Source: Porticoccaceae bacterium (GTDB lineage: Bacteria > Pseudomonadota > Gammaproteobacteria > Pseudomonadales > Porticoccaceae). Taken from it: 64,000 nucleotides of DNA. Both the position numbers and the translations under genes were made by a program. The stretch spans positions 1 through 64,000 of the forward strand of contig JABJEX010000014.1 in assembly GCA_018663035.1 (NCBI GenBank), given 5' to 3'. The notes under the pieces were generated by a model. It searched no databases. It was given only the letters and a program-made list of their open reading frames with translations, and was not told the DNA's origin. Shown here one piece after another: positions 4,251 through 53,167 of this stretch; position 1 is the first letter of the stretch, and every line of letters starts with the position of its first letter.

Positions 4251-5516
4251 ATGAGCAATAAGGAAATCAAAGCCTATATGCAGGCTGTTGGCATTGCCGC
4301 CCGTGACGCTTCCCGCGTGGTTGCCCGCGCAGGAAGTGCGGTGAAAAATAATGCTTTACTGGCAATTGCCAATAGCATGGATAACGCCCGAACTGACCTG
4401 CTGCAAGCCAATACTGAGGATATGAGTAGGGGTAGAGATGCCGGTCTTGATGATGCGTTACTGGATCGACTTGAACTCAATAACGAGCGCATTGATGCCA
4501 TGATTGAAGGCCTCAAGCAGGTCGCGAGCCTAAAAGATCCAGTGGGTGAAATCACTGATATGGGCTTTCGCCCCAGCGGTATTCAACTGGGGAAGATGCG
4601 TGTGCCTTTAGGTGTTGTTGGTATTATTTATGAGTCGCGACCCAATGTCACCGTCGATGCAGCAAGCCTGTGCCTAAAATCGGGCAACGCAACAATTTTG
4701 CGCGGTGGCAGCGAAGCTATTCGCTCTAATCAGGCCATCGCCAAATGCATATCCACGGGGCTAATTGCCTGCGGCTTGCCCGAGAGTGCGGTGCAGGTAG
4801 TCAACATCACAGATCGGGCAGCAGTTGGCGAACTTATCACCATGACTGACTATGTAGATGTCGTGGTGCCCCGCGGTGGTAAAAGCCTAATTGAGCGTAT
4901 CAGTGCTGATGCCCGAGTACCTGTTATCAAGCACCTGGACGGCAATTGCCATGTCTACATTGATGATCGTGCTGACCTTAAAAAAGCGGTGGCTATTGCC
5001 GACAACGCCAAGACACATCGCTATGGCGTCTGCAATGCAATGGAGTCTCTGCTGATCGCTGAGCCTGTCGCCGATAAAGTATTGCCTGAACTAGCAAAAA
5101 TTTATATCGAAAAACAGGTTGAAATGCGCGGCTGTGAAAAAGCTCGCAAGCTTCTCAGCTCAGTGGTTGAGGCCACCCAACAGGATTGGTATGAGGAATA
5201 TTTGGCACCAATTGTATCGATAAAAATTGTCGCAGGGATTGATCAGGCCATTGAGCATATTAATAAATACAGCTCTAAGCACACCGAATCCATAGTGACT
5301 GAAGACTTTAATCGTGGCCGCCGCTTTATCGCTGAAGTAGACTCCAGCTCAGTTATGATTAATGCGTCAACTCGCTTTGCTGATGGCTTCGAATACGGCC
5401 TTGGTGCTGAGATTGGAATTTCCACAGACAAAATACATGCCCGGGGGCCCGTGGGTCTTGAGGGCCTTACTAGCCAAAAATGGGTAGTCTTTGGCGATGG
5501 ACAAATCCGTCAATAA
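4251..5516 (+). CDS. proA: Gamma-glutamyl phosphate reductase
   Basis: [30 protein letters not shown]; full length 421 aa. Confidence 0.96.
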
Positions 5517-47990: not shown

Positions 47991-50477
47991 TTAGCGGCGT
48001 TTCTTTTTCCCTTTGCTCGCAGAAGGCTTTCCAGCAGCACCTCTGGCGGGCCTAGCTTTGCGCTTTTTAGTGGTAGACTTTTTCTTGCCCTCAACAATCT
48101 TCTTTTTGCCAGTCTTAACCCGGCTACTGCGTTTCTTCTCGTGCTCTGAGGCGAGTTCGGCCGCTCTAGAAGAGACTCGAGCTCTGTCGCCATTACCTGC
48201 CTTTCCACGGCTTTTGAACGGTTTTCCCTGCGCCTCAATGTTAGAGCCATCCATAAGTTCAAAATCTATTTTACGCTCTTGTAAATTGACCGCTGCTACT
48301 TTGACCCGCAATTTTTGGCCCAGTCGAAATATTCTCCCAGTGCGTTCACCCACCATACGGTGGTGGGAGGCCTCATGATAATAGTAGTCTTTGGGTAGAC
48401 CAGTGACGTGAATGAGCCCCTCCACATGGAGGTCATCGAGCATAACGAATAAGCCAAAGCCGGTCACCGCACTGACTACACCAGAGTACTGCTCGCCAAC
48501 TCTATCCATTAAATATTCGCATTTAAGCCAGTTGACCACATCCCTGGTCGCCTCGTCAGCGCGGCGCTCAGTAACTGACAGATGCTCTCCAGTCTGGTCG
48601 AGGCGGCCTAGGTCATAGGGATATATAGTTTGTGGCTCTAGTAGCGTTGCTCCAGGTACTCGCTGTACCGCAGAGGTTTTTTTCTTACTTCTAATCAAAC
48701 TGCGAATAGCTCGGTGAACCAGCAGATCTGCGTAGCGACGAATCGGCGAGGTGAAGTGGCTATAGGCGTCGAATGCCAATCCAAAATGTCCTAAATTTTC
48801 TGGCTGGTACACCGCTTGGCTCATCGAGCGCAGCATGACTGACTGAATAATTGCTGCATCATCGCGGCCTTTGACTGCCCGAAGAACCCGCTGGTAGTCC
48901 TCGGGCTGAGGATCATCACCGCCTCCAAGGCCAATACCCAACTCTCCCAGAAAATCACGAACCGATGTCAGTCTCTCCTCGCTTGGGCCCTCATGGACAC
49001 GAAATAGAGCCGGAATCTTTACTTTGTCTAAAAATTCAGCGGCACAGACATTCGCGCAGAGCATACACTCTTCAATCAGACGGTGTGCCTCTGTGCGATC
49101 AACAGGAATAATCTGACTAATTTTGCGCTGACTATCAAAGAGAATGCGAGCTTCTTGACTATCGAAGTCAATAGCGCCACGTTTAGCTCTGCGTCTATGA
49201 AGCACCTTATAGAGATCATGTAGCGCATCAACCTCAGGTAAAATAGCTGCAAACTGCTTGCGGATGCCCGATCGACTTTCCTGATCACGCTCCGCGATGA
49301 TTTGCGCTACCTGCGTGTAGGTGGTTCTGGCATGGGAGTGCATTATGCCTTCATAGAACTGGTAACGACTTACATCACCCTCAGCACTAATCTGCATCTC
49401 GCAGACCATGCAGAGGCGATCTTCTGCCGGGTTTAATGAACACAGACCATTCGATAGCTTCTCGGGCAACATGGGTACCACATGATTGGGGAAATAAACG
49501 GAGTTACCCCGCTCAAAGGCTTCGGTATCTAAAGCTGAGCCTACACTGACATAATGAGATACATCGGCAATCGCCACAATCAGTGTCCAGCCTCCCCGCG
49601 GCTTGGGCTGACAATACACTGCATCGTCGAAATCTCGAGCATCTTCTCCATCAATGGTGATCAACGGTGTCTTACGCAGATCCACCCGCAAACTACTGTC
49701 ATCAACTTGGTCCGGAATCGCAGCTGTCTCTGCTAATACCTGTTCATTCCATTGGTGAGGAATGCCGTAGTTACGAATAGACATATCGATTTCTAAGCCA
49801 GGGTCCAAATGGTCGCCCAAAACCTCAGAAATATAACCAACAGGCAAGCTGTTACGAGACGGTGGCTCTGATATTTCAACCACCACAATCTGCCCCGAAG
49901 TGGCATTTAAGCGCCTATCGCCAGGGATTAGGACATCTTGACTGATGCGCGGATTATCTGGGCGAACAAAATTTATACCGCTCTCGCAGAAAAAACGGCC
50001 CACCAACTGAGTGGTTTTGCGCTCAACCACATCGACCAAGCTACCTTCGGGCCGACCGCGTCGATCCCAGCCAGCAATTCTAACCAGCACAATATCGCCA
50101 TCAAAAACACGCCGCATCTGTGCACTTGATAGATAAATATCCTGTCCATCACCCTGGACTGGGGAGACAAAACCATAGCCTTCAGGATGACCTATGATCC
50201 TGCCCTTGACCAAATTAAGCTTATCTAGAGTGCCATAACCTCCACGCCTGTTGCGTGCCACCTGACCATCTCGCTCCATTGCTCTAAGGCGACGACGCAT
50301 GGCTTCTATCTGATCTTCATCAGTCAGTTGAAGAGCTACGCAAATTTCTTCATGGGTTACAGGGCCAATACTTTCGCTGAGGTAATCGATCACAAACTCA
50401 CGACTTGGGATGGGTCGCTGATAATTAGCGGCTTCTCGATTAGCAAAGGGATCATTCTGTTTGGATTTTTTTGACAT
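47991..50477 (-). CDS. rnr: Ribonuclease R
   Basis: TIDGEDARDFDDAVYC, HFTSPIRRYADLLVHRAIR, S1 domain, Lys/Arg-rich tail. Confidence 0.96.
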   Translation of the reverse strand: MSKKSKQNDPFANREAANYQRPIPSREFVIDYLSESIGPVTHEEICVALQLTDEDQIEAMRRRLRAMERDGQVARNRRGGYGTLDKLNLVKGRIIGHPEGYGFVSPVQGDGQDIYLSSAQMRRVFDGDIVLVRIAGWDRRGRPEGSLVDVVERKTTQLVGRFFCESGINFVRPDNPRISQDVLIPGDRRLNATSGQIVVVEISEPPSRNSLPVGYISEVLGDHLDPGLEIDMSIRNYGIPHQWNEQVLAETAAIPDQVDDSSLRVDLRKTPLITIDGEDARDFDDAVYCQPKPRGGWTLIVAIADVSHYVSVGSALDTEAFERGNSVYFPNHVVPMLPEKLSNGLCSLNPAEDRLCMVCEMQISAEGDVSRYQFYEGIMHSHARTTYTQVAQIIAERDQESRSGIRKQFAAILPEVDALHDLYKVLHRRRAKRGAIDFDSQEARILFDSQRKISQIIPVDRTEAHRLIEECMLCANVCAAEFLDKVKIPALFRVHEGPSEERLTSVRDFLGELGIGLGGGDDPQPEDYQRVLRAVKGRDDAAIIQSVMLRSMSQAVYQPENLGHFGLAFDAYSHFTSPIRRYADLLVHRAIRSLIRSKKKTSAVQRVPGATLLEPQTIYPYDLGRLDQTGEHLSVTERRADEATRDVVNWLKCEYLMDRVGEQYSGVVSAVTGFGLFVMLDDLHVEGLIHVTGLPKDYYYHEASHHRMVGERTGRIFRLGQKLRVKVAAVNLQERKIDFELMDGSNIEAQGKPFKSRGKAGNGDRARVSSRAAELASEHEKKRSSRVKTGKKKIVEGKKKSTTKKRKARPARGAAGKPSASKGKKKRR

Positions 50478-51019: not shown

Positions 51020-52102
51020 CTAATTTTCAGCATTTCTTTCGAAGAAGTCTTGGATATGCTGGCGGATAAACTGCACCTTTTTAAGGTTCTCTTCCACTGC
51101 TGAAGAGCTGTAGGTCGCCCTAAACTCTAATACGAGTTCTCGCAACTCAGACATACCATAGAGCCCGCAAAGACCCATTAAGTCATGGATAATCTGCCTT
51201 AGACTCGTTTTCTCATCGACCGTCAATTGCTGTTCGAGCCGATTTAAATTGTCAAACAGTGCCTTTTTTAGTTCCTGAGCGGGGATAACCGAGGCCAATA
51301 AGCCGCCAGTTTGCTGTTCCGGTAGTTTACGCTGGTCCCTCAGGGCGCTGAGAATGGCGTTTACCAGATTGACTTCTTCTAAAGGCTTAGACTGGATGCT
51401 AACCGCACCTGCCGATAGCATTCTCTGGTGCTCTGCCTGAGTAATATCGGCAGTGAGCCCAATAATCGGAGGGCTTTCACCGGATTGCTGCATAATAGCC
51501 TCGCAGGCTGCTACACCGTCAACCACCGGCATATGGATGTCCATAAGAACAGCATCAACATGCAGTTCGTCTGCTAGGTCAATAGCCTCTTGGCCATTGT
51601 TAACCACCATACAGGTTGCCCCATAACCCTCCAGTAGTTTTAGAATTAGCTTTTGATTAAATGGGTTGTCTTCGGCAATCAATATAATTAACCCCGACAG
51701 TAGTGGCTCTGGCGCAAGGCCCTTGCTATCGGATGGTTTCTCGGAATTTTCCGGGTCAACCTCTGATAAACAGCAGGTAAAGCTAATTGTTGAACCATGA
51801 TTTTCTCTGCTCTCAATACTCACATCACCACCCATGGTTTGGGCCAGGCGCTTACAAATCGACAGACCCAGACCTGTCCCTCCATAGCGTCGATTAATGG
51901 AAGTATCTTCCTGAGCAAATGGCTCAAATAGGCTGGGAATTTTATCTTTGGCAATACCTTTACCTGAATCAGATACAGAGCATTGCAAAGTAAGCACGCC
52001 GTTTTTTTGCGAGAGAGCCTCTATCTTAAGGCGCACAAAACCCTGATCGGTAAACTTAATTGCGTTATTGATTAGGTTGGCAACTATCTGAGAGAGACGC
52101 AC
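51020..52102 (-). pseudogene. Headless hybrid histidine kinase fragment (HATPase-REC-HPt, BarA/GacS-like), sensor and HisKA regions missing
   Basis: ANLINNAIKFT, GGTGLGLSICKRL, ILIAEDNPFNQKL...VLMDIHMPVVDG, HPt HDLMGLCGLYGM; frame opens at TAA (52130-52132) followed by KPQALCGDPVRLSQIV. Confidence 0.8.
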
Positions 52103-52520
52103 AGGATCGCCACACAGAGCCTGCGGCTTTTACCGTGATATAACCAGAAAAATCTATGGATGAAAGCAGACTGGTGGTGTTCGCCGGGGAGTTTTCAAGC
52201 GTTTTATCTAGGCTGCCCAAAGCAATACCCTCAAAAGCGAGCATGTTTTGCATGTCTGGCGTCCGGTGATCATTAGCGCTGCCCCCCTGCCAAAATGCGA
52301 CCGAGGTGATCTGCGCGATACTACCTGCAGTTACCTGACAACTGGGGACACAGACACCGTAATGTTGATCAATACTGCCATCTCCGTCGATATCTACCCC
52401 ACCCAGACTGTTATTTTTGTCTGCCTCCCAAATACTCAGTAAATTGATGGTGTCAGACAGTGCTGAGTTGGCGGTAAATGAGCAGAGGGTAACAACAATA
52501 AGTACTAATACCTTTTTCAT
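52065..52520 (-). CDS. Predicted secreted protein, C-terminus replaced by out-of-frame kinase DNA
   Basis: Signal peptide MKKVLVLIVVTLCSFTANSALS; ...DFSGYITVKAAGSVWRSCASLSDSCQPNQ where the tail is the kinase sequence in another frame. Confidence 0.65.
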   Translation of the reverse strand: MKKVLVLIVVTLCSFTANSALSDTINLLSIWEADKNNSLGGVDIDGDGSIDQHYGVCVPSCQVTAGSIAQITSVAFWQGGSANDHRTPDMQNMLAFEGIALGSLDKTLENSPANTTSLLSSIDFSGYITVKAAGSVWRSCASLSDSCQPNQ

Positions 52521-52604
52521 AGCTCATCCTTGAATGTCATTCGATGATAGGGGGCTAAACTATCAACTCCAGTATTCGGCCCTGCAAAAATCTCTGGTAC
52601 CGAA

Positions 52605-52738: not shown

Positions 52739-53095
52739 TTAACCCAGTTTTTCCTTAATGCGCGCAGATCGGCCTGAACGCTCGCGCAGGTAGTACAGTT
52801 TGGCACGGCGCACAGCACCGCGGCGCTTAACTTCAATACTGTCAACTAGCGGGCTGTAGGTCTGAAAAGTACGCTCAACACCAATACCGTTAGAGATTTT
52901 ACGCACGGTAAATGCAGAATTCAGTTGGCGGTTGCGCTTAGCCAAAACAACGCCTTCAAATGCCTGTAAACGCTCACGGGTGCCTTCTTTTACTTTTACC
53001 TGAACGACCACAGTATCACCAGGGCTAAACTCAGGGATTTCTTTACTCATCTGCTCTTTTTCAAGTGCAGCAATGATAGATGTTTTGTTACTCAT
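52739..53095 (-). CDS. rplS: 50S ribosomal protein L19
   Basis: [34 protein letters not shown]; start assigned MSNKTS. Confidence 0.97.
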
Positions 53096-53167
53096 TTCTT
53101 GCTCCTCAATTTTCATTGGTTGGTGGCATGCCACCTGTTTTAGAGCTCTGTACAGAGAGGATGAACA

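Follow-up and report, generated by a model that had tools for sequence, protein, structure and literature searches.

Probable deletion scar between rplS and rnr joins remnants of a VPLPA-CTERM protein gene and a hybrid histidine kinase gene in a Porticoccaceae bacterium

The window analyzed here is a stretch of 64,000 nucleotides from the genome of a Porticoccaceae bacterium (G000). On its minus strand, about 136 5' codons of a secreted-protein gene are joined, out of frame, to about 364 3' codons of a hybrid histidine kinase gene, over positions 52065-52520 and 51020-52117. The secreted open reading frame (ORF) runs on the minus strand from 52520 to 52065 and encodes 151 amino acids (aa) that begin with MKKVLVLIVVTLCSFTANSALS and end in SGYITVKAAGSVWRSCASLSDSCQPNQ before the stop codon. 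The other minus-strand frame over the end of this ORF reads PQALCGDPVRLSQIVANLINNAIKFT and remains open down to 51020 as a tail with a HATPase domain, a receiver domain (REC) and an HPt domain. The original prediction of an out-of-frame fusion of a secreted-protein gene to a kinase tail is thus confirmed from both minus-strand reading frames and from the homology of each half. The features of the locus are as follows.

52739-53134, minus strand: rplS (ribosomal protein L19), the intact gene nearest to the scar at one end; it adjoins the VPLPA-CTERM gene in G010, G018, G017 and G022
52110-52520, minus strand: 5' remnant, about 136 codons, of the gene for a VPLPA-CTERM (exosortase-sorted) protein, with a hydrophobic signal-like N-terminal stretch and homologues in relatives
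52110-52117, minus strand: putative deletion breakpoint, CTGTGTGG, assignable to either parent gene on comparison with the VPLPA-CTERM genes and kinases of relatives
52065-52109, minus strand: out-of-frame tail of the secreted ORF, RSCASLSDSCQPNQ and stop, encoded by kinase DNA
51020-52117, minus strand: 3' remnant, about 364 codons and stop, of a hybrid histidine kinase gene (HATPase, REC and HPt), recognized by identity to kinase C-terminal halves
47991-50477, minus strand: rnr (RNase R), the intact gene nearest to the scar at its other end; it adjoins the kinase gene in G010, G018, G017 and G022

The true start of rplS is probably an internal ATG (MSNKTSI...).

Over its first 130 codons, the secreted ORF shares 50-71% identity with intact homologues from the five genomes of the same genus that match it best. 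These intact proteins are about 206-242 aa long; those of G010 and G018, at about 206 aa, carry a VPLPA-CTERM-like tail, VPLPGAAWFFITGLVGIFGLRR, and the model TIGR03370 matches several of the homologues, for example in G020, G058 and G018. The VPLPA-CTERM domain kept in the intact homologues is cut off in the window ORF. Because the homologues end in this tail, the window ORF corresponds to a sorted protein minus its tag, and such a truncated protein, lacking both exosortase and tag, would at best reach the periplasm.

A search of 56 relatives matched the kinase tail to intact hybrid kinases of 745-767 aa in the same genus, with at best 72% identity to their C-terminal halves; aligned with these kinases, the tail shows the HATPase, REC and HPt motifs. 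The sensor, HAMP and HisKA phosphoacceptor domains are missing from the remnant, and the N-terminal half of the kinase is missing from the whole G000 genome. Without HisKA, the tail would be unable to autophosphorylate in cis. Since both halves match intact homologues, neither is a chance ORF. The codon-position pattern of the kinase tail is like that of intact genes (12/3 ratio 0.13), and changes at otherwise invariant residues are in weak excess (6 of 140, compared with 0 of 134 in G025, an equally long branch), all six being fairly conservative. Strong decay of the tail is thus not seen. The equivalent kinase tail in G028 contains a stop codon and a change of the receiver motif AEDN to AEHN. 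Because the window's tail evolves like an intact gene and both remnants are open, the deletion is probably recent relative to its branch.

Both parent genes are intact in G010, G018, G017, G022 and G016, where they lie on one contig and the same strand with the secreted-protein gene upstream. Where the positions were mapped (G010, G018, G017 and G022), the points equivalent to the two breakpoints are 34.9-39.6 kb apart, and on either flank the genes of the window keep the order and orientation that they have in these genomes, through rplS-trmD-rimM-rpsP-ffh and beyond on one side and through rnr and beyond on the other. The interval between the parents is an exopolysaccharide (EPS)/exosortase locus of the XrtD/VPLPA-CTERM type, 35-40 kb long, between rplS and rnr. 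In G010, it begins at the VPLPA-CTERM end with an undecaprenyl-phosphate glucose phosphotransferase (TIGR03023, above cut-off), an export protein, a beta-barrel protein, a chain-length protein and a tyrosine kinase, and continues with an XrtA-type ATPase, glycosyltransferases, sugar enzymes, the exosortase and a PrsT-like TPR protein. Its kinase end holds a LuxR/NarL-like response regulator, a TonB-dependent receptor, a substrate-binding-like protein and the kinase itself. The G010 exosortase is assigned to XrtD by TIGR04152 (533.6 bits, cut-off 400), and the PrsT-like protein scores 283.7 bits, under its cut-off of 312.2. The two parents, sought as intact homologues and for adjacency, are thus both found intact in relatives, 35-40 kb apart with the EPS/exosortase locus between them, and not adjacent. 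These intact same-strand parents on one contig, together with the collinear flanks of the window, support the proposed deletion of the kinase's sensor and HisKA domains and of the C-terminus of the secreted protein. The same collinearity excludes the chimera of unrelated DNA that had been offered as the other origin of the join.

Homology of the window ORF to the secreted protein extends to the W of GSVW, and the frame switches inside CTGTGTGG at 52110-52117. The junction itself was correctly predicted, and alignment of the relatives moves its position slightly to the left of the 52115-52135 first proposed. Large deletions associated with microhomology occur in bacterial chromosomes, and microhomology was looked for at this site. 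The VPLPA-CTERM gene reads GGCTCTGTnTGG followed by CTTTAT and the kinase gene CTGTGTGGCGATCC, with a common stretch of up to 8 bp (CTGTGTGG); at the equivalent sites, G018 has CTGTTTGG in the VPLPA-CTERM gene and CTGTGCGG in the kinase gene. This putative microhomology is read from relatives that are about 70% identical, and at such a distance the real overlap may fall short of 8 bp. Short common sequence at the join and truncated genes on both sides resemble such microhomology-associated deletions, and nothing in the window is unusual for one. No direct or inverted repeats of 10 bp or more occur in 51900-52600, a scan confined to the surroundings of the join, and a repeat-mediated deletion is ruled out within that scope. 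A hairpin at the junction was rejected, as folding is no better than in shuffled sequences (z 0.13), and no composition step is obvious there.

The G000 bin, the one genome of its species in the collections searched, comprises 2.02 Mb in 104 contigs, with an estimated completeness of 100% and contamination of 0.37%. Searches of this bin returned no match to the 7.3-kb WcaJ-to-ATPase end of the interval, to its middle 20 kb or to its TonB receptor, and no exosortase (PF09721). The XrtA-type ATPase has no orthologue in G000; the single match is 36% identical, longer, and present in intact species beside their own copy. As no tested part of the interval is found in the bin, its translocation is ruled out. 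Contig C94, near 5293-5364 (L190), encodes an orphan VPLPA-CTERM protein closely similar to a second such protein of G018 and G010, and similar orphans occur in G028, G056, G015, G029 and G062. A sorting tag left without its enzyme in G000 fits the expectation after loss of the locus.

Because the flanks are collinear, both genes are truncated, the tested parts of the interval are absent and an orphan VPLPA-CTERM protein persists without an exosortase, the join is read as a large deletion rather than a gene arrangement. Very probably, a single illegitimate deletion fused the VPLPA-CTERM gene to the kinase gene and completed the loss of the EPS/XrtD locus. In this proposed course of events, rplS and rnr of the ancestor would have been separated by a 35-40 kb exopolysaccharide/exosortase (XrtD) locus with the gene content seen in relatives. 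One illegitimate deletion, probably at short microhomology, would then have fused codon ~136 of the VPLPA-CTERM gene to codon ~382 of the hybrid histidine kinase gene as the last step of locus loss. What was left over would be a secreted protein minus its sorting tag and a kinase tail that is untranslated or poorly translated, and both remnants are most likely dead and without function.

Undecayed remnants imply either a recent deletion or an assembly join, and an assembler faced with a mixture of strains might have skipped a population-variable locus of about 38 kb and joined its edges. EPS loci are often variable within species, the G000 genome is in 104 contigs, and both remnants are open, little decayed and intact-like in codon-position pattern, all of which would suit such an artefact. 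However, the join shares about 8 bp only and contains no repeat, and the usual assembly k-mers are much longer than this; the searched parts of the interval are on no contig of the bin; scars at the same locus also occur in genomes with long contigs (G056, 6 contigs; G062, 10 contigs); and the locus is missing in G025 as well. An artefact is therefore improbable. Slightly less probable still is a living gene pair, with a HATPase-REC-HPt protein still being made from the kinase tail or a new role taken on by the truncated secreted protein. The open ORFs, the mostly conservative substitutions in the kinase tail and the retention by G056 of an in-frame 272-aa VPLPA::REC-HPt fusion speak for it. 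However, the tail has a single early start, an internal GTG at 52102 for which no ribosome site could be made out by eye, its phosphoacceptor domain is lost, and the equivalent tail of G028 is damaged. A genuine overlapping gene pair is rejected, as its boundaries vary among species: homologues with the same two ORFs and conserved boundaries are not found, and the sole other VPLPA-kinase fusion found, that of G056, is in frame and differs at both breakpoints. That the locus was gained in some species, and not lost here, is hardly credible. Its restriction to a minority of the genus and its absence from deeper branches would agree with gain; yet half-genes flank the join in G000, G012, G056, G011 and G062, and for these scar lineages gain is contradicted because an insertion cannot leave half-genes on both sides. 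Orphan VPLPA-CTERM proteins without an exosortase also stand against it.

Deletion in the window is accompanied by repeated loss in sister species. The exosortase is present in 13 of 50 genomes of the genus; in one more, G020, the locus is interrupted by the end of a contig. Physical gene remnants are found in seven lineages besides G000. In G012, the first ~46-50 residues of the VPLPA-CTERM protein (to codon ~50) are joined in frame to PrsT codon ~390, giving 453 aa with an imperfect 13-bp overlap; this fusion to the C-terminal half of PrsT (C61:78367-79725, L033/L060) is possibly an exported chimeric protein. In G056 (C5 near 671200-671960, L163), the VPLPA-CTERM N-terminus is joined in frame to the end of the kinase receiver and HPt, giving 272 aa with an imperfect 15-bp overlap, and this is an independent deletion with breakpoints other than those of the window. 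The scars of G011 (beta-barrel codon ~68 to PrsT codon ~14; its close relative G058 has the exosortase) and G062 (WcaJ codon ~335 to the PrsT tail, no overlap) are out of frame. Overlaps in the sister scars range from none to imperfect stretches of 13-20 bp. The sole remnant is a PrsT tail after rplS in G015, the kinase receiver-HPt tail in G028 and the last ~50 kinase codons in G005. In G021, G008, G029 and G025, rplS is followed by the regulator block. In a deep group of the genus (L171, L174-L175, L177-L178, L181-L182), the gap between rplS and rnr holds just the response regulator and kinase, with no TonB receptor, binding protein or EPS genes; this pair may be older than the EPS locus or may persist beyond it.

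In a tree of ten flanking proteins, species with loss alternate with intact sisters (G021/G010, G012/G018, G062/G061 and G011/G058). Fitch parsimony gives 8 changes of the locus and loss-only parsimony 11. In the deepest branches, absence of the locus may be ancestral, and incomplete assembly could account for some of the absences in metagenome-assembled genomes. We tentatively raise the possibility that selection has repeatedly favored loss of the XrtD/VPLPA-CTERM locus between rplS and rnr as a change of trait in this SAR92-type genus, in at least eight changes whose scars grade from recent fusions into tails that have almost vanished. If so, the benefit might be, for example, escape from phages or from grazing, or a move from an attached to a free-living mode of life.

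The interval in relatives resembles the PEP-CTERM/EpsH loci (Haft et al. 2006, PMC1569441) in its XrtD exosortase (TIGR04152), PrsT-like TPR protein, XrtA-type ATPase, chain-length, tyrosine kinase and export proteins and glycosyltransferases, with the sorted protein at the edge. Unlike those loci, the window keeps just an N-terminal piece of one sorted protein and the C-terminal kinase half, and the response regulator of relatives is LuxR/NarL-like rather than the sigma-54 PrsR. Degenerate exosortase systems have been described in Chlorobium tepidum and on a Desulfovibrio plasmid (PMC1569441) and in Ferrovum strains (PMC4886054). These share with the present case tags without a sorting enzyme, or close strains with and without the system, whereas here several species of a single genus bear readable physical scars at the same chromosomal position. 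A search of the available literature returned no paper linking SAR92 with exosortase and none naming VPLPA-CTERM together with exosortase.

Each scar is ordinary, and the interest lies in repeated loss across one bacterioplankton genus. The window's scar accounts for an odd fusion that automatic annotation would give as two genes, and the in-frame fusions of G012 and G056 illustrate the origin of chimeric proteins by deletion. Together, the scars form a natural loss series, in coastal bacterioplankton, for a system that makes surface sugar and sorts proteins. With such a series, one may ask why the locus can be dispensed with and whether its loss goes along with lifestyle or with pressure from phages.

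Some flanking genes are irregular in individual relatives. In G012 (C61:86926-86970, L060), rnr is short by about 54 codons (between query residues 143 and 198), perhaps through a small deletion or an assembly gap. Genes seemingly split into overlapping frames, namely trmD in G017 (C1:2193838-2194586) and rnr and ffh in G069 (C4 near 117520-117700 and 121380-121800), look like assembly indel errors.
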